From positions 1 to 64,000 of the IMG/VR virus record IMGVR_UViG_3300018891_000001: a DNA stretch of 64,000 bases; one strand, given 5' to 3'. Position 1 is the stretch's first letter; each line of letters starts with the position of its first letter. The notes beneath the pieces were generated by a model. It was given only the letters and a program-made list of their open reading frames with translations. It was not told where the DNA came from and made no database searches. This DNA is from a virus. Below are positions 2,942 through 31,884 of this stretch, piece by piece. A program made the position numbers and the translations under genes.

Positions 2942-4006
2942 CTACACCACCTTTGTACTAAAAATCATTTCAAGAATCTGTTCCATTTGAGAATCAGAAA
3001 GCTGACTTCCAGCTGTTGCTTTTCGGCCACCGCCACCAAAATACTGAGCAAAACGAGACACATCTATATCATCTCGCTCTGTACGATAACTAATCTTTTG
3101 AGAATTCAAATTGATAACAGCTATTAAATCTAAGTCTGGATGCTTCTTATGAATTTCATGAGCAACCTCATTGATATGTTGTTCCGCAAAAACAACACCT
3201 ACTTTGTAGCGTCCTACTGGTTTAATCTTCAATTTTTTCTCACACGCTCGAACATATCGATCAATTTCTTCTTGTTTTAAATCTAACAACAGACGAGCCG
3301 TGTCATTAAATTGATAATGGTGATATGTTTCCATTTGTTGCAATACATTATCAATAAACCGCTCACGGCCTAAGATCCAAAACAAATCGTTAAGTTCTTT
3401 AGCTTCTCTGTCGTTATAAATATGAGCCCAGTCCCATGTATCATAACGGCGAACTTTTTCGATAAAGCCATTTTTCCATTTAACAAGGTCATCAAAATTC
3501 ATCATCCCTTGCTCTGCTAACCAAATTAACAACATACTAGCTCCTGATGTATTTTCTCCTGTTTCGTGTTGGAAATATACTTGTGCCCAGTCATATTGAT
3601 TAAGCCATTTAGCGGTTTCATGGTGATCTAGTAAACACACTCTCCCTTTTTTTGCATATGGATGTGAATCAATCAGTGTTGCTAGGCCTTCCTGCACAGA
3701 AATATCTGTAATCAACACCTTTTCATACTCGCCTTCTTTTACTCCAGAAAAGAAAGTATGAATCTTCTCATTGACATCATGATAATCACAATATGTAACA
3801 TCAACATTTTCTCTTCCAAAAGCAGCATATGCTAAAATCGCACAAGAAACGCCATCAAGATCTGTATGAGTAAATAGTTTCACTTTCGTGAAATGCGTTT
3901 CTCCAACATTCATTTGTATTGCATTACAACATTCGGCTGACTCTAAATTATCGGATTTATATTCCTTCTTTTCATCATTAATACCGTAAATAAACTTTTC
4001 TTTCAT
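2942..4006 (-). CDS. DHH-family phosphoesterase (NrnA/RecJ-like)
   Basis: 354 aa from the ATG at 4006, chosen because GGAGGAG lies just upstream. The DHH superfamily hydrolyses phosphodiesters (short RNA/DNA, cyclic dinucleotides or pAp) with two Mn ions. Visible motifs in order: THTDLDG (Asp49, Asp51), ITDIS near 100, LLDHHE with DHH at 127-129, GASMLLIWL near 155, and a C-terminal DHHA1-like GGGGRKATAG near 324. The canonical GG-H of DHHA1 is altered to GGGGRK. The length fits NrnA-type nanoRNases better than RecJ. A likely role is recycling of short oligonucleotides or signal-nucleotide removal; the exact substrate cannot be told. Confidence 0.85.
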   Translation of the reverse strand: MKEKFIYGINDEKKEYKSDNLESAECCNAIQMNVGETHFTKVKLFTHTDLDGVSCAILAYAAFGRENVDVTYCDYHDVNEKIHTFFSGVKEGEYEKVLITDISVQEGLATLIDSHPYAKKGRVCLLDHHETAKWLNQYDWAQVYFQHETGENTSGASMLLIWLAEQGMMNFDDLVKWKNGFIEKVRRYDTWDWAHIYNDREAKELNDLFWILGRERFIDNVLQQMETYHHYQFNDTARLLLDLKQEEIDRYVRACEKKLKIKPVGRYKVGVVFAEQHINEVAHEIHKKHPDLDLIAVINLNSQKISYRTERDDIDVSRFAQYFGGGGRKATAGSQLSDSQMEQILEMIFSTKVV

Positions 4007-4517: not shown

Positions 4518-4931
4518 TTACAAAGTCACCAAACACCCCGGAGGGGGGATTAATAACTTAATCCTAATAATTTTTTCATTTGTTGCTGCAATTCTAATTT
4601 CCCTTCTAGATAAGCCCTTTTTTTTCATTTCTTTAATCAAGAGTAATAAATGACGAGGGGGCATATGTTGTATCGCTAAAATATCTATATATTCAATAAT
4701 CGCATGAGCATCCATATTCAAATCAGATAAATATGATTGTAATGTTTGTCCTTCTTCTGAATTCTTCATAATTTTATACGAGTACTTAAAAGTATATGTA
4801 TGCACCCAAAATAACTCATGATTGTGAGAAATATGTTCCTGAATAATCGGTTCCTCCCGAAGATCGTACTTAGTAGCAACAATACAACTTGGTCGCTTTT
4901 CAACATATTATCCAATAATTAAATCTCTCAT
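4518..4931 (-). pseudogene. Gene with an in-frame UAA at codon 8
   Basis: An ATG at 4931 with a GGTGG-type ribosome binding site opens a frame MRDLIIG, then TAA, then 129 more codons in the same frame to 4518. Without the stop the product would be about 137 aa. The downstream part has a helical look (IIEYIDILAIQHMPPRHLLL) and a basic segment (KKKGLSRREIR). The only later start is a GTG at 4805 without a good site. The last codons run through the UCC-loop hairpin. It is a broken gene, a readthrough gene, or a shorter gene using the GTG. Confidence 0.4.
4526..4548 (-). repeat. UCC-loop intergenic hairpin, copy 1
   Basis: On the minus strand: CCCC-TCC-GGGG stem-loop followed by TGTTTGGTGA. One of eight copies in the leftward arm. 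The stem here is CCCC/GGGG instead of the commoner CGCC/GGCG, which is a compensatory double change. It ends 24 nt before the start codon at 4502. Confidence 0.65.
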
Positions 4932-14187: not shown

Positions 14188-17100
14188 TCATGAATAGCGA
14201 GTAACTGATTCCAAATAGAACGTCAATGACTTCTTATTGACTTGAAAATCCTTTACTTTTGCAACAAATCTAGTTGCACCAGTAAAGAAAGTAACATACT
14301 CTGGATAAATCGAAGCTACACGTTGCTTCTTGACATACACTTCATGACGAAGATTGCCAAGTTCATCAGCTTGAACCATAACTGCAATATGATTAGCCCA
14401 ATTTTGAATCATATTAGCAACCATCTCTGGCGTATAACCCGGAGTAAAGTTACCAATGTTCACTTTCGTAACCTCAAGTTGATCAAAACGAGTTACTTGA
14501 GGTTCTTTTAATTTTAAGTGTTCTGTTCCAGACACCTTACGTAAAGCTGCAACAAATTGATGTTTAGCTACAACCCAAGGGAAACTTAACCCACGAGCAG
14601 GCTCATCCACCGTTGCGCCACGCTTCGAAGCTGAAACAGAATAAGTCATCTGATAAGCAACCAAGCCAATATAAGCTGGATCAAATTGTTCTGAAAGAGC
14701 CATAAACTCTGCTTGACACTTTTCAGTAATAAAGTTGAGCGAATCATCTAGATCACGCTTCAACTGATTAATATATTGTTCTTTGGCATAATCACTTGCA
14801 AAAGAAATAAACTCAAGTTGAGACATTTCGGTATCAAACTTACGATACGCATTCGAAATAGCCGTATTGTACATAGATTTAATCATGCGTACATTACTTA
14901 AAACGGCCATTTGTTCCACATGAGACTGTGGCACTTCAACCACAGTGGAAATCGCACTGAGAAGATTATTCTCTGCATATTCACTTCTCAACTTCTTAAT
15001 ATCAGCAATAAATTCTTGTTCTTCCCATTTCAACATATATTCATGAACACGAGAAAGAACAGAATCATTCTGAATACCATTTGACTTCCCTTTTAAATGA
15101 GCGAACCAAGATGGACTTGCCCAAACATAACGACGTAATTTCTTATTGTACGTTGCAACTTCTGCTGGTGGATTTTCAATGAAAGAAAGTTCTTCTTTCA
15201 ATGCTTCTTCATATGCACCACCATGTTTTGCACGGTCAATTTCCCAAGACTGAACCCATGCAAGTAAATCAATAAGTTCTTGGAGTTCATTCACTCTCTT
15301 AATAATCGCTTTTGCTGCTGACATACTGCCAGCTTCATAATGAGAACGACCCTTATACCACAAAGCACGAACCGCATCAGCAAGTTTCGTAGCATAATCC
15401 GTTAACTCACCAATACGGTTTGGCTTTAACGTTTCTGCTACATACTCTAAAGATATTTCATACATCTTTAACTGTAACTCACGAGTATATTGACTCTTTG
15501 TAAAAGTAAATTTATACTTAGACATATCCACTGTACCCTTAAATGGGCAACCATTGTCGAAGAGAATCTGCCCATTCTCTTCCCAATAGTGGATATCTAA
15601 GAAAGCAGGAGCAGATTTGCATGCTTCTTCAACCGCTGTGACCAATTCTGGTTGAGTCATGCACAGTGATGTATCACCATCACAATCTGCTCCACCTTGA
15701 GAAATAGTATTAAAGTCATGGCACGACATAATAATCATGCCATCAAAAGCATCTTTCTTCATATAGCGTGAATAAGCACGTGCTTCAAGAACACGAGATT
15801 GCCCCATAGTCATCTGCGGATTACGAGCAACAGCTAGTTTGCCAACATACACCACATGACCATCTTTCTCTAACATAAAGCACGTACCAGGTTTAATTCC
15901 TTTATTCGGATTCACAAAAAGTTTTCCATTTTTACGAATCTCTTGATCCGTGCCACGCAACTTATACGCATCTAAAATCGCATACGGATCCATAATGATA
16001 AAACGATAATTCGCTTCAACCGGAATTAAACCCGATTTCCACTCTTTAATCAACTCTTGTAATAAAGAAAGAGCCTTTTCTTTCAAGAAAACATCTTGGT
16101 AAGAGTTCGGCGCATAATGTAAATAAAACGACAACAAAGAAACAAGAGTAGAATCTAACAATTCATCTTGTTCCTCTTCTGAATACTCTTCAAGTTGCAA
16201 CAAACGATCATGCCCTAAATACTCCTTCATCAATTCTACATCATGAAGTAACAATTTTGCACGATCCAAATGAGGTTTTAAAAGTTTAATCATAGTATCG
16301 GCACTCAATTTCATACCATGTATAAATTGATACGGTAAACTCACATATCTCTTTTTAAAGCGCATTGGTGCTCCAAAAAGAGCCACACGGAACTGCAATT
16401 GAATATCTTCAATTACATCTTCCAACGTATCTGTAGAAGCTTTGAATGAAGACATTGGAATCACAATATCTTCTTCAAAATACTTCTCTAAATCTGGAAT
16501 ATACACAGCATTGCCTTTTACAAAACCGTTAAACAAACGAACAACACCATTCTGAAAATGACGGCCAAACTCCGCTTCCGCTAAAGTCTTAATACGATTA
16601 TTGAAATACATTTGACCATCACCGGCTACTTGTTCAATAGGATGATCAGCCGCATCAAACACACGACTTTTCTTTGTATCTTTGCCAAAAGCTTTAAACT
16701 TACCTTGTGATACTTCTGAATAAACATCTTCGACAATACGAAGAGATACATTTCCGCCGAGAATAGAAATATCACCATTCTCGTGACGTACTACTTCTTT
16801 TCCAAAACGAATAAAGTTCGACTTAACACTATTCGAAAGCGTTAAGCCAAAACGTTTCATAGCTTTGACATAATCTAATTCATAAACAATCTCACCATTT
16901 TTATCTTGGCCCTTCACCTTCGCAAAGGCTAAAGGATTCATACCAAGAATATTCAATACATCCACAGGATGAATAATATGCTCTGCCACACCAACTACTT
17001 GGACTTGACGTTCTTGAGAAGGAGAACGCAAAGCATAACGAACCATACGTTCTACACCTTCATAATCAATATAACTCATTCCTAATCGAATAATATTCAT

Positions 17101-17667
17101 CGCCTTTGTAATATCCTCTTCTTTTAACGGTTTTAAATCAATGAAGAAAACGTGAGGCAATACATATGCATACACCTCACGTTCTATAACTTCACCATCA
17201 ACTATCTTTCTAACTGTCACCATACGTGGACCATCAAAAATAAATGGAGACAACATCTCTGCTGCATAAGAACCAGAAATCTCTTTATATCCTGATTTCT
17301 TATCTTCACCAACGAAGAAAGAATCAGAATAATTGCGAGTAGAAATATAACGACCATCAACAAATTCGATCGTATCTAAGTCTGCTTGTGCTACAATAAC
17401 ACGAATATTCTTGATACGACGAAGTTTCTTAGGAATTGGATGAGATTCCAAGAACTTCTTAAATACATGAGCTTGTTGTGGTGCAACACCTGCCAACTCT
17501 ACAGGATTCTCTAATACCTCCACTACATTTGCACCACTCGCAACCGCTTCCACAACTTTAGAAAAGTTTTTCGTACCAATTGCCGTTAAAGGCGAAAAAG
17601 AAGCCAAGCGTTCAACCACTTGGCTCACAGACTGAATAGGATTTAATACATTTTTCACATTGTTCAT
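14188..17667 (-). CDS. Single-chain RNA polymerase of YonO / cellular RdRP type
   Basis: 1159 aa; ATG after CAGGAGGAAA. The metal-binding loop DCDGD (Asp661, Asp663, Asp665, in GGADCDGDTS) is the DxDGD signature of two-barrel RNA polymerases. Upstream, LAVARNPQMTMGQSRVLEA aligns by eye with the xVxRNPCLHPGDxRVLEA block of eukaryotic RdRPs and of the SPbeta protein YonO, a single-subunit DNA-dependent RNA polymerase that transcribes late phage genes. The spacing between the two blocks also fits. The protein is longer than YonO as I recall it (about 800 aa), with added N- and C-terminal parts. Expected role: phage-specific transcription from DNA; an RNA template cannot be excluded. It has a strong ribosome site and its own terminator. 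Confidence 0.8.
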   Translation of the reverse strand: MNNVKNVLNPIQSVSQVVERLASFSPLTAIGTKNFSKVVEAVASGANVVEVLENPVELAGVAPQQAHVFKKFLESHPIPKKLRRIKNIRVIVAQADLDTIEFVDGRYISTRNYSDSFFVGEDKKSGYKEISGSYAAEMLSPFIFDGPRMVTVRKIVDGEVIEREVYAYVLPHVFFIDLKPLKEEDITKAMNIIRLGMSYIDYEGVERMVRYALRSPSQERQVQVVGVAEHIIHPVDVLNILGMNPLAFAKVKGQDKNGEIVYELDYVKAMKRFGLTLSNSVKSNFIRFGKEVVRHENGDISILGGNVSLRIVEDVYSEVSQGKFKAFGKDTKKSRVFDAADHPIEQVAGDGQMYFNNRIKTLAEAEFGRHFQNGVVRLFNGFVKGNAVYIPDLEKYFEEDIVIPMSSFKASTDTLEDVIEDIQLQFRVALFGAPMRFKKRYVSLPYQFIHGMKLSADTMIKLLKPHLDRAKLLLHDVELMKEYLGHDRLLQLEEYSEEEQDELLDSTLVSLLSFYLHYAPNSYQDVFLKEKALSLLQELIKEWKSGLIPVEANYRFIIMDPYAILDAYKLRGTDQEIRKNGKLFVNPNKGIKPGTCFMLEKDGHVVYVGKLAVARNPQMTMGQSRVLEARAYSRYMKKDAFDGMIIMSCHDFNTISQGGADCDGDTSLCMTQPELVTAVEEACKSAPAFLDIHYWEENGQILFDNGCPFKGTVDMSKYKFTFTKSQYTRELQLKMYEISLEYVAETLKPNRIGELTDYATKLADAVRALWYKGRSHYEAGSMSAAKAIIKRVNELQELIDLLAWVQSWEIDRAKHGGAYEEALKEELSFIENPPAEVATYNKKLRRYVWASPSWFAHLKGKSNGIQNDSVLSRVHEYMLKWEEQEFIADIKKLRSEYAENNLLSAISTVVEVPQSHVEQMAVLSNVRMIKSMYNTAISNAYRKFDTEMSQLEFISFASDYAKEQYINQLKRDLDDSLNFITEKCQAEFMALSEQFDPAYIGLVAYQMTYSVSASKRGATVDEPARGLSFPWVVAKHQFVAALRKVSGTEHLKLKEPQVTRFDQLEVTKVNIGNFTPGYTPEMVANMIQNWANHIAVMVQADELGNLRHEVYVKKQRVASIYPEYVTFFTGATRFVAKVKDFQVNKKSLTFYLESVTRYS

Positions 17668-22361: not shown

Positions 22362-22390
22362 TTGAAATGCATTACAAGAAATAGTATATT
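22362..22390 (+). promoter_or_regulatory. Promoter of the structured RNA unit
   Basis: TTGAAA (22362-22367), 17-nt spacer, TATATT (22385-22390). The spacer carries AATGCATTACA (22366-22376), a half-matching copy of the TGTAATGCATTACA operator. Transcription would start near 22396, at the 5' end of the long non-coding unit. Confidence 0.7.
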
Positions 22391-22736
22391 ATAGATGGGT
22401 GGTTTATTCCGATTACGGCACATGGATATGTGCTTCTCCTCTCCCAATTGTCTGGCGGTTATCGCCGTTTCCGGAGGGCCCACTCATCAACCACATCCTC
22501 TTTAATTATATATTTTTGGAGTGGGCCTACTTAAATCTGATACATGGGTAGATCATGAATTGTAGCGGTAAGACACTCCTGCTTAGGAGACACCAGACAG
22601 GTGGCAAACATCATACATGAAAGGCTTTTCTTGTTTGAGCCTTATCAAGCAAGTGGTGAGCCATTTGAAATAACCCTTTCATATTTATAGCCATGAAGGA
22701 ACACACTCCAGTAACCCACGGGTCTGGAGTCCCCAT

Positions 22737-22811
22737 TGCCTAGTAGCTCAGTGGTAGAGCAATCGGCTGTTAACCGATCGGTCGCAGGTTCGAATCCTGC
22801 CTAGGCAGCCA
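22737..22811 (+). tRNA. tRNA-Asn (GUU)
   Basis: Complete cloverleaf: acceptor TGCCTAG/CTAGGCA, D arm with AGCTCAGTGGTAGAGC, anticodon stem CGGCT/ACCG-type with loop CTGTTAA (anticodon GTT), T arm GCAGG-TTCGAAT-CCTGC, discriminator G and an encoded CCA (22809-22811). Well-formed, so probably functional. It sits in the middle of the structured RNA unit, a layout reported for some ornate phage RNAs. Confidence 0.97.
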
Positions 22812-23756
22812 ACCTCTATTCTAAAAGATTGAAATAAATTATACAGTGGCTGAATAATGGATTGGCAGTCCATAAGGCAGTCATGATGCCTGGGATGAGA
22901 AACAGTTGTCTGAGATGGCAGAGATCATCCTTTGAGACTTGATGAAGTCGAATGGTATGTAGGTGTTCCATTTATATAAGAAGCTTAATGCACTCTAGCT
23001 GGCCGGCGTGATAGGGGAGGATAAAGAGTGGTTAATACGTAATCCCACGCCCCAACGGTAAAGCGTTATCGTGGTTGATGTGTTGAAAGGCACTATAAGG
23101 CACGCTAGAGGTGCTGTCGCATAAAACCACGAACTCGATGGACTAGTATACAGTATGTGACATTTGAATCTAATCCACGCCATGTGACAGTTATGGGTAA
23201 TCAATCCCATCCAAGATAACGAGGTAATGTGGAGTAGGAGTAGCTAACCTACAAGAGCATTATTCTCCTTGGTGGCAGAAAGAAGTGCTTATATAAATGG
23301 TTGGAGGTGGAATCCTCCTTGTATAATTTATTTGAGTCTTTTAGTAAGAGGCTCAAGTGTTTTGATACTATGGGTTGTAAAGCCCACCACCTTTCTTTTT
23401 TGTATATAAGTCAACAACTCCTTTCGACATGGCAGGATTTTTTCCTCATTATTAAGGTATTATGAGTGAGGTTTTTGCCTGCCACACCATATTAATAGTT
23501 ACACCAATTTAGGTGTTAACTATAGATTCATACCTTGTACGACGCATTAATAATACCTCCGGGGCATATAAGAGGGAGATTTTTACTGTTGGTCTGCACA
23601 GGTTTTTGCTCCCCGCCCTAAAGGGCATTCGAGGTTTTTATGACATCTCCTTTTTCCCTTGAGTGCCTTTTAGGGTGTGGGGTATATGCTCAATCCCAAC
23701 TGCCCACCTCTAGGTATTGTTGTGTCTTACGAGTAACTTGTGCCAATTTGAATGGG

Positions 23757-23802
23757 AAAAAGCACTAGAACGTGTATAGATTCTAGTGCTTTTTCTTTTT
23801 TT
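23757..23802 (+). terminator. Strong intrinsic terminator
   Basis: AAAAAGCACTAGAA (23757-23770) pairs with TTCTAGTGCTTTTT (23781-23794), 10-nt loop, then a T-rich tract. It closes the structured RNA unit; the A/T symmetry could let it work in both directions. Confidence 0.93.
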
Positions 23803-29142: not shown

Positions 29143-30124
29143 ATGAGTGTACAAGCCATTGAACTAACAGAAAGACAAATGGACGAATTAGAATCGGAGA
29201 TTCGAACGGATCCGGTAAAATGGGCATACTGGAAACTCAAAGATCCAAAAGGAAGACCGTGGAAAGCCCGTTGGTACCAAAAGAAAATCATTGACGGTAT
29301 TATGAAAGGTGATCGTCGAATTGCCGCTCGTATGGGACGACGGGTAGGAAAAACAGAAACCATGGTTGTCTTTTGTTTATGGTATGCCTTTCATCATAAA
29401 AATGCTCGCTTGCTAATTGTTGCTCCGTATGAGCATCAAGTCCGATTAATATTCATGCGATTATCAGAATTGGTGCGAGATAGTGATGAACTGCATCATT
29501 CTGTAACCATTACCAAAAATCCGTTTATTGCTTCTTTTGGAAATGGTTCTAAGATTATGGGGTTTACAGCAGGGGCCAACTCTGGTACACAAGCGGGTGC
29601 GAGCTTGCGTGGTCAGCGTGCCGATTGGATTTTTATGGACGAAGTCGATTACATGAGCCGTGAAGCGATTGACGCTACCATTGCAATTTCTTATGAAGAC
29701 CCAAAACGAATTGGAATTTGGGTATCTTCTACACCTACCGGAAAGCGAGATTTCTTCTATGAAGTTTGTACAAATCCTGATACGGGATACAAGGCTTATC
29801 ATTTCCCATCTCATGTAAACCCGGATTTTGATGAACGCATGGAAGGCGAGCTTCGTGCAACGATGACCGTACAAGGTTATATTCACGAAGTTGAAGCGGA
29901 GTTTGGAGAAGAAACCATCGGAGTATTTAGCAAATCAGCGGTAGAGCGAGCAAAATCGCAATATCTTTACAGTTATCGAGAATTAAACGTGTGGGAGAAG
30001 GAACAGTACAAAAAACAGGGCTACAACATAGATGACATTATCTTCTTCCCGGAGTATACTAAAAGAAATCCAGCCCCTCCTGCGATTCGGGTTGTAGGGG
30101 TAGACTGGGATAAAAACGCAGCTT
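29143..30124 (+). CDS. terL: Large terminase, exon 1 (ATPase domain)
   Basis: First exon, 327 codons. Packaging motor ATPase: Walker A GRRVGKT at 65-71, Walker B WIFMDE at 162-167, motif III VSSTPTGKR near 200. The exon ends just inside the nuclease domain after GVDWDKNAA (first metal-binding Asp). The frame then meets TAA, but reading resumes in two later exons; joining 29143-30124, 30593-30765 and 31885-32502 gives one 590-aa frame. Splice sites are inferred from protein continuity and the usual group I rule (exon ends in T, intron ends in G); they could be off by a few nt. Confidence 0.85.
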
Positions 30125-30592
30125 GCTAAGTAAATGGGTGGTATGATGCTCATATGCTAAGATTCCACTCAAAAGAGAATCTCATTAAGCTATATGAGTA
30201 CATGTATGAAAATCAGACAGTATGCTTACCAAGAAAGTTAGAAAAATATCATGAAGCATTAGCAAGATGCAATTATTGTCCCCTTCAGGAGTAATCCTGT
30301 CGATATAAACCGGGTGAATTGCTGGAATCCCCTTAGAGCCAATTTGACCACAACGTAAGGATGAAATAAGCCTAAACGTGACGGTTTGAAAACAAATTGG
30401 ATTGGGTAATCAGCAGCCAAGCTCCGAACAGGAGAAGGTTCAACGACTATCTCGTAAGAGAGTAGGGTTCAAGTGAACTCGAAGTGCCCGGCCCCTTTTA
30501 CAAGAGGGTGATGATATAGTCTGAGCTTACATGAAAGTGTAAGAGGGTTGTCGGAAACGGGCAATCCGTAACACAACTGAAATATGCAGAAG
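30125..30592 (+). other. Group I intron 1 in the terminase gene
   Basis: 468 nt. Core elements of a group I ribozyme are visible in order: GAATTGCTGG (P, 30316), AATCAGCAGCC (Q, 30408), GTTCAACGACTA (R, 30438) and ATGATATAGTCTGA (S, 30510). These match phage group IA introns of Gram-positive bacteria. The 5' part holds only a remnant of an endonuclease gene. Boundaries inferred from exon continuity. Confidence 0.8.
30154..30294 (+). pseudogene. Remnant of a homing endonuclease C-terminus
   Basis: 46 codons (MLRFHSKENLIKLYEYMYEN, then QTVCLPRKLEKYHEALARCN). The pattern LxxYxY...xxxYLxRKxxKY resembles the C-terminal end of LAGLIDADG intron endonucleases, including LYVNANVYLERKYNLYKNYA of the enzyme in intron 2. 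The catalytic part is gone. No ribosome binding site. It suggests that intron 1 once was mobile by itself. Confidence 0.5.
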
Positions 30593-30765: not shown

Positions 30766-31884
30766 GTAGCATAATTTGTTTTCACCCTGTATAATCAAAT
30801 TATTAACAAAAAAGGGTGAGAGATTATGTTTCCTGAATGGTATCAAGAAGCAGAAAGATTATATGTAGATGAAAAGCTTTCTTATACAAAGATTGGACAA
30901 ATACTTGGTGTTGGAAGAAAAACAGTAAGCCACTATTTGCGAAAAGGTGGACATGAATCGAATTTAAAATTTTATCCTAATGTAGACCACAGCAAGTATA
31001 GAAAGTATCAAATTGACGAATCAGTTTTTGAAACCATAGATACAGAAGAAAAAGCATACTGGCTTGGAATGTTATATGCTGATGGCAATGTGTCTGATCG
31101 TTCAAATGATATAGAAGTCACTTTACAAGCAGAAGATTATAATCATCTGTTAAAGTTAAGGGATTTCTTTAAAACTGATAAACCCGTCTACAAAAAGGAT
31201 AAAAAGAAATACGATAAAACCTATGAAGGTTACAGGCTTATTATTTGTAGTAAGAAAATCAAACAAGATTTGATTCGATTAGGTTGTTTACCTAGAAAAT
31301 CACATATACTTCAATTTCCTACAACAGAACAAGTCCCAGAACATTTGATGTCTCACTTTGTGAGAGGATATTTCGATGGCGATGGTTGTATTACATTTGC
31401 TAATAAAGGAGTTACATTAGTCATTGAGTTATTAGGGACAGAAGATTTTCTTACTCAATATTTAATTTGGTCTGAAAGAAATCATCATCGCATTCATGAT
31501 TTTAAACATTCGAAGGAAACCAAAAGAGTCCAACACTTTGGTGAAGAAGCTAGATTTATATTAAATCGCTTATATGTAAATGCCAATGTGTATCTTGAAA
31601 GGAAATATAATCTTTATAAAAATTATGCATTGCCGTCTAATGGGGAAACTCATTAGAGTATCAGAGCGGAATGAAGCGGGAAAGCTGAGATGCTAACCCG
31701 AACCGAAGGCTAGGCAAATCCTAGTCAGGGGCAGAGCATAGGAGCTGACCGGTAACAGGAATAACGCTCCCACGAGGCCGCTCCACCCAAACCGTCAAGG
31801 TCGGTGGGTGAAAAGGTATGCCGAGCTTGCGGGAAATGAACCGTAAGAAGTAGAGGATAAAAAGCCTTTACGATAACAATACTG
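30766..31884 (+). other. Intron 2 in the terminase gene, with endonuclease gene
   Basis: 1119 nt. It begins at GTAGCATAA and contains a complete LAGLIDADG gene, then about 230 nt of structured RNA (31657-31884; e.g. CTAGG/CCTAG near 31711 and GGGGCAGAGCATAGGAG). By context and endonuclease type it is most likely a group I intron, but the standard P/Q/R/S blocks are less clear than in intron 1. Confidence 0.7.
30826..31656 (+). CDS. LAGLIDADG homing endonuclease
   Basis: 276 aa; ATG after AAAGGGTGAGAG. N-terminal helix-turn-helix (LSYTKIGQILGVGRKTVSHY, about 16-35), then two LAGLIDADG helices: AYWLGMLYADG (about 75-85) and VRGYFDGDGCI (about 179-189). The acidic ends (Asp in ADG and DGD) are the catalytic residues. 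It cuts intronless terminase alleles and so spreads intron 2. The ribosome site (AGGGTGA) can pair with TCACCCT 25 nt upstream, which would keep its translation low. Confidence 0.88.
   Translation: MFPEWYQEAERLYVDEKLSYTKIGQILGVGRKTVSHYLRKGGHESNLKFYPNVDHSKYRKYQIDESVFETIDTEEKAYWLGMLYADGNVSDRSNDIEVTLQAEDYNHLLKLRDFFKTDKPVYKKDKKKYDKTYEGYRLIICSKKIKQDLIRLGCLPRKSHILQFPTTEQVPEHLMSHFVRGYFDGDGCITFANKGVTLVIELLGTEDFLTQYLIWSERNHHRIHDFKHSKETKRVQHFGEEARFILNRLYVNANVYLERKYNLYKNYALPSNGETH

Follow-up and report, generated by a model that had tools for sequence, protein, structure and literature searches.

A phage non-coding RNA operon holding a tRNA-Asn and a divergent member of the ROOL family

Introduction

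What does a phage transcribe from a 1.4-kb interval that shows a promoter, a tRNA and a terminator and no gene? The original prediction for this DNA answered that it is one giant ornate RNA, either a member of the GOLLD/ROOL kind or a new class. We followed up this prediction in the window, the whole 64,000-nt stretch of DNA analysed, which covers part of a virus record of 215,870 nt. We report here that 22362-23797 is an operon of phage non-coding RNAs, among them a tRNA-Asn and a divergent ROOL, an RNA of a known family.

ROOLs are non-coding RNAs of phages, prophages and plasmids, and tRNAs are often encoded close by. Among published ROOLs, ROOL env-120 forms a homo-octameric hollow cage through kissing loops and A-minor contacts, with the variable linker disordered inside the cage (PMC12286853). 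The cage structure of ROOL is solved and its function not established (PMC12286853, PMC5643018). The long non-coding RNA of the Ligilactobacillus salivarius megaplasmid, a ROOL, is very abundant in growing cells and has its own promoter (PMC5643018).

Results

The locus is a run of separate modules

Among the proteins encoded by the phage record are a terminase, a major head protein and ParM, an actin-like partition protein. Judged by the ParM locus, its nearest relatives are terminase-bearing plasmids of about 200 kb from Bacillus licheniformis, B. paralicheniformis and B. halotolerans (about 67% ParM identity), followed by Paenibacillus plasmids of 215-229 kb (ParM 41-43% identical), and these relatives look like phage-plasmids; a ParM search of genome contigs gave no match. 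Elsewhere in the window, a group I intron (30259-30543, 86.9 bits) lies between ORFs 29143-30129 and 30826-31656, directly after the ORF for the terminase large-subunit N-terminus, and the ORF following the intron weakly matches LAGLIDADG, so an intron appears to split the terminase gene. A 1159-aa protein encoded at 14188-17667 on the minus strand has an RdRP-family domain (PF05183), and we take it to resemble the YonO-type single-subunit phage RNA polymerases.

The interval 22362-23797 forms a predicted transcription unit without protein genes, in which promoter, leader, tRNA-Asn(GUU), ROOL, structured 3′ region and terminator follow one another with the features below.

22362-22390, plus strand: promoter TTGAAA-17-TATATT, from a consensus scan, conserved ahead of the homologous locus in other records
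22363-22376, plus strand: probable phage operator TGAAATGCATTACA, overlapping the promoter -35 and recurring through the phage genome
22395-22736, plus strand: leader RNA of 342 nt, its first ~20 nt common to sister phage-plasmids and the remainder weakly structured
22737-22811, plus strand: tRNA-Asn(GUU) with encoded CCA, 75.5 bits, with cloverleaf, anticodon and CCA all present
22826-23336, plus strand: ROOL RNA of a divergent Bacillaceae subfamily at full model length, from the RF03087 match, homology to L001, compensatory changes and a profile match
23123-23181, plus strand: position of the ROOL variable linker, 47% identical to L001 against 75-81% in the flanking cores
23329-23359, plus strand: weak terminator-like hairpin directly after ROOL, from a consensus scan
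23430-23484, plus strand: hairpin with a U-rich internal loop, from folding
23614-23677, plus strand: 21-bp hairpin of the conserved 3′ element with loop UUUUUAUGACAUCUCCUUUUU, from folding; the loop has homologues on long hairpins of L002 and L080
23644-23651, plus strand: C-rich anti-Shine-Dalgarno-like motif CATCTCCT, present in every syntenic locus
about 23757-23797, plus strand: intrinsic terminator (AAAAAGCACUAGAA...UUCUAGUGCUUUUUC), read directly as a hairpin with A-tract and U-tail

The claim that the interval holds no gene held up, as the one ORF of 60 aa or more that lies wholly inside it (22995-23210, minus strand) is disrupted in the homologue L001 described below and no ORF is conserved. 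The claim of one 1.4-kb RNA did not: ROOL makes up 36% of the interval and does not include the tRNA, and both ends are those of a phage ncRNA/tRNA locus that sister elements possess without any ROOL. The interval is a run of separate modules, namely leader, tRNA, ROOL and 3′ element.

The central module is a divergent ROOL

Under the curated Rfam thresholds the tRNA is the sole match in the interval. When the Rfam covariance models were run with E-value thresholds, RF03087 matched 22826-23336 over the entire model (1-574 of 574, E 1.5e-17) at 86.5 bits, against a gathering score of 99.1, with an uncertain mapping in the 5′ third and a mean posterior of 0.70 over the whole match. GOLLD gave no covariance-model match on the interval up to E 10. 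GOLLD is likewise a giant phage RNA, often located by tRNAs and cage-forming, but the sequence and fold found here are those of ROOL. Of the two options left by the original prediction, membership is supported, 511 nt being a divergent member of a known family, and a new class is not. Weak matches to miRNA and YrlA families were rejected as hairpin noise or tRNA overlap. Since the Rfam cut-off decides on inclusion and does not describe a biological feature, we read the sub-threshold score as marking divergence and file the RNA as a divergent member on homology.

A profile HMM built from 30 other ROOLs, with the window and L001 left out, matched 23061-23280 (E 1.1e-8), its only significant match in the 64 kb, and 22826-23336 folds at z -3.8 against shuffles. 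Ninety-five of the 118 ROOL pairs projected from Rfam are standard in the window and 23 are nonstandard. Column-pair covariation in a MAFFT alignment of 32 ROOLs recovered stacked helices, with 13 of 20 checked pairs standard in the window and the rest perhaps misaligned. Fifteen other ROOLs, found by a motif pattern in viral and genome contigs, scored 170-338 bits (two are cut by a contig end), the full-length viral and MAG ROOLs among those fetched reaching 265-338 bits; six further ROOLs in Lactobacillales genomes scored 207-240 bits. One Mogibacterium MAG (L029, 3842-5047) carries two ROOL-like RNAs in tandem. BLASTN of the window ROOL over 400 genomes of the class, run without a positive control, gave no match, and an Rfam ROOL search over genomes overlooked L001, which cmscan detects, so that its negatives were left unused.

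The homologue L001, 76% identical to the window ROOL, resides on a 312-kb plasmid of Virgibacillus halodenitrificans and likewise matches ROOL at full length below the threshold (82.3 bits). The scores far under those of other ROOLs, taken with this homology, place the window RNA as a divergent ROOL in one subfamily with that of Virgibacillus. When the two were aligned by sequence only and the Rfam structure was imposed on the alignment, double compensatory changes appeared in 12 of the 118 pairs, compared with 0-3 when partners were slid by 1-3 bases, and 12 pairs were broken in one of the two RNAs. Their divergence is greatest in the known variable linker of ROOL. The double compensatory changes, together with the contrast between cores and linker, indicate that the fold stayed under selection after the split between the two RNAs. 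A decayed, non-functional remnant might score below the curated cut-off and miss model helices, as this RNA does, but decay is very improbable given the 12 double compensatory changes (set against 12 pairs broken in one RNA or the other) and cores so much better conserved than the linker.

The window RNA thus resembles RF03087 in its full-length consensus match, helices with compensatory changes, linker in the expected place, phage-encoded position beside a tRNA and non-coding nature. It differs in being ~60-80 nt shorter and in lacking some model helices, including the 11-bp hairpin, and the GGAUAC loop of most other ROOLs.

Promoter, operator and terminator

The sigma-A-like promoter proposed for the left end was recovered just upstream of the leader. 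Its pattern count by itself is at chance level (7 vs 4.9), and five other phage-plasmid records (L002, L003, L080, L081 and L082) keep the element ahead of their homologous locus. The palindrome TGTAATGCATTACA overlaps its -35 with one mismatch. Allowing up to two mismatches, the window holds 7 such sites against 0.4 expected; perfect or near-perfect sites lie at 3915, 20415, 22363, 34020 and 59448 of the window, with about 20 more in the phage record. The palindrome is spread through related Bacillus and Paenibacillus phage-plasmid records, was never found in the reversed control, and at several sites overlaps promoter elements. Judged from this distribution it is probably the shared operator of a phage regulator, which would place the RNA operon likely within the phage's own regulon. 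Like the L. salivarius RNA, this ROOL belongs to a large extrachromosomal element of Bacillota; unlike that RNA, it lies under a probable phage operator and beside a tRNA.

A second operator-type promoter, before ParM in L082 (~4690-4810), is followed by a hairpin with GGAGCACCUCCUGAUC and a terminator and may make a short RNA; the complement could alternatively be read as a ribosome-binding site with a 21-codon ORF.

The leader folds weakly (z -2.2 against shuffles). At the right end, the strong terminator that had been predicted was confirmed by direct reading; it is absent from the consensus-scan listing, and a comparable terminator stands at the equivalent place in L002 and L080. The weak hairpin at 23329-23359 is a possible 3′ boundary of ROOL.

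Sister loci lack the ROOL

In three sister phage-plasmids (L002, L003 and L080), the upstream gene (39% identical in L002 and L003) and ParM flank an interval of ~720-750 nt in which Rfam finds no ROOL. It contains, in order, the same promoter with operator as the window locus, the shared first transcribed bases (81% identity with the window over 62 nt), a tRNA-like element, tRNA-Asn, tRNA-Met, a long hairpin and a terminator. In the B. licheniformis and B. halotolerans sisters tRNA-Met occupies the ROOL position, and the long 3′ hairpin keeps the loop CAUCUCCU. The B. licheniformis, B. paralicheniformis and B. halotolerans loci thus match the window in flanking genes, operator promoter, tRNA-Asn, terminator and a long 3′ hairpin that bears the same loop, and differ in lacking ROOL and having tRNA-Met and the tRNA-like element without a normal D-arm. 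Since flanks, promoter, tRNA-Asn and 3′ hairpin persist without it, ROOL looks like a cassette next to the tRNA-Asn of a pre-existing phage tRNA/ncRNA operon.

The tRNA-like element itself (L002, 6123-6188; L080, 3355-3426) has a T-arm, an acceptor stem and an encoded CCA, with a missing or tiny D-arm, and stands ahead of the phage tRNAs.

A tRNA is an ordinary neighbour of ROOL

The complete tRNA-Asn foreseen inside the interval is present 15 nt upstream of ROOL and is the only tRNA detected in the 215,870-nt record. A tRNA in this place is an ordinary setting for a ROOL: by manual count, 13 of ~19 viral ROOL loci have a tRNA within ~350 nt upstream or downstream, and in L061, L074 and L071 the tRNA ends 7-31 nt before ROOL, comparable to the 15 nt here. 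The first eight tRNA-bearing loci had suggested tRNA-Asn as a special partner of ROOL; this idea was dropped, as the nearest tRNA is Asn in only 5 of ~15, the others being Leu, Met, Ile, Gln, Trp and Pro.

In L001 no tRNA is called by the ROOL. An apparent acceptor-stem and T-arm remnant, UCCACA-AUAGGUC-AUAGAUUCAAAUCUUAU-CUGUGGA-GCA, lies 13 nt upstream of it (a single case; ~0.03 expected per 200-nt window at the shuffled rate), suggesting that a processing signal outlives the tRNA. The acceptor/T-arm minihelix is what RNase P needs. In view of this need and the remnant, we infer that directing the cut at the ROOL 5′ end is one of the roles of the tRNA.

A structured element at the 3′ end

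The many helices and the long helix reported in the original prediction are real, the long helix being that of 21 bp at 23614-23677, and both ROOL and the 3′ region fold beyond shuffles. The latter (23337-23745) reaches z -7.6 on the plus strand and -3.5 on the minus strand, and the corresponding regions reach -3.8 in L002 and -5.0 in L080. No Rfam family matches the element, and a search of viral contigs with the exact loop pattern returned only the phage of the window and coding matches. Between the window and L002 the hairpin stem is wholly different and the loop GGUUUUU[AU/C]GACAUCUCCU is retained; L080 retains UUUUUCAUCUCCU. The motif CA[U/C]CUCCU, noticed post hoc, occurs on the transcribed strand in the interval of all syntenic loci, two from Paenibacillus included, and is rare elsewhere on that strand. 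It resembles an anti-Shine-Dalgarno sequence, so pairing with ribosome-binding sites would be a possible function.

These observations bear on another explanation, in which the 3′ element is the functional core, a phage regulatory RNA whose loop CAUCUCCU binds phage or host mRNAs by pairing at their ribosome-binding sites, and the tRNAs and ROOL are passengers. The near-identical loop on a wholly different stem, the recurrence of the motif and the strong folding in all three loci fit it, as do the Paenibacillus loci, which carry CACCUCCU, though without hairpin homology. Against these stand the post hoc discovery of the motif, the few independent sequences, and a long hairpin in which, between L002 and L080, two pairs have double compensatory changes and four are broken, and we consider this explanation unlikely. 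We are also doubtful, if somewhat less so, of a combined scheme in which the hairpin with the GGUUUUU(N)GACAUCUCCU loop would be the constant part of a modular operon under a phage-wide operator, with tRNAs and ROOL as swapped cassettes, and ROOL and the element would jointly control translation in infection.

Two structural candidates in the element were rejected. A pseudoknot between GGAGAU and loop AUCUCC was dropped since L080 does not keep the pairing. The hairpins at 23430-23484 and 23574-23613 of the window have U5-U6 runs flanking an internal loop, recalling triple-helix-forming elements; an ENE-type U-rich double internal loop is not conserved in L002 and L080.

Discussion

We consider it probable that a phage-regulated precursor is cut at the tRNA to yield a cage-forming ROOL that was inserted as a cassette into a pre-existing operon. 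The homology to ROOL, the compensatory pairs, the conserved promoter and operator and the absence of the cassette from sisters are established at the level of sequence; a single precursor transcript, its cleavage at the tRNA, cage assembly and any role in infection are our extension of them. Transcription would start just past the operator-overlapped promoter and end at ~23797, giving one transcript with leader, tRNA-Asn, divergent ROOL and 3′ structured element. Host tRNA-processing enzymes would cut both ends of the tRNA, releasing free tRNA-Asn and forming the 5′ end of ROOL. By analogy with published ROOL structures (PMC12286853), which make multimer formation plausible here, the RNA would fold into a pseudoknotted core and assemble with its own copies into a hollow cage with the linker inside. 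Our best guess at its role is that it would shelter or sequester RNA or protein during infection. The cassette itself would have been inserted beside the tRNA of the older phage locus.

The whole 1.4 kb might instead stay a single uncut ornate RNA whose modules, from the leader to the 3′ element, fold together and act as one, with the tRNA in the particle; one promoter and one strong terminator do bracket all modules on the same strand, and ROOL and the 3′ region both fold strongly. However, an intact tRNA with CCA should be cut by host tRNA enzymes, leader and 3′ element exist without ROOL in sisters, the L001 ROOL exists without either, and a terminator-like hairpin closes ROOL, so this reading is distinctly unlikely.

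The window offers a divergent Bacillaceae ROOL for work on structure and covariation, and an uncatalogued conserved RNA in its 3′ element. A natural comparison comes from related phage-plasmids, which differ in whether this site holds a ROOL. The defined promoter and predicted operator tie ROOL expression to a phage regulator, and when and why a phage makes ROOL becomes testable in Bacillus-type hosts.
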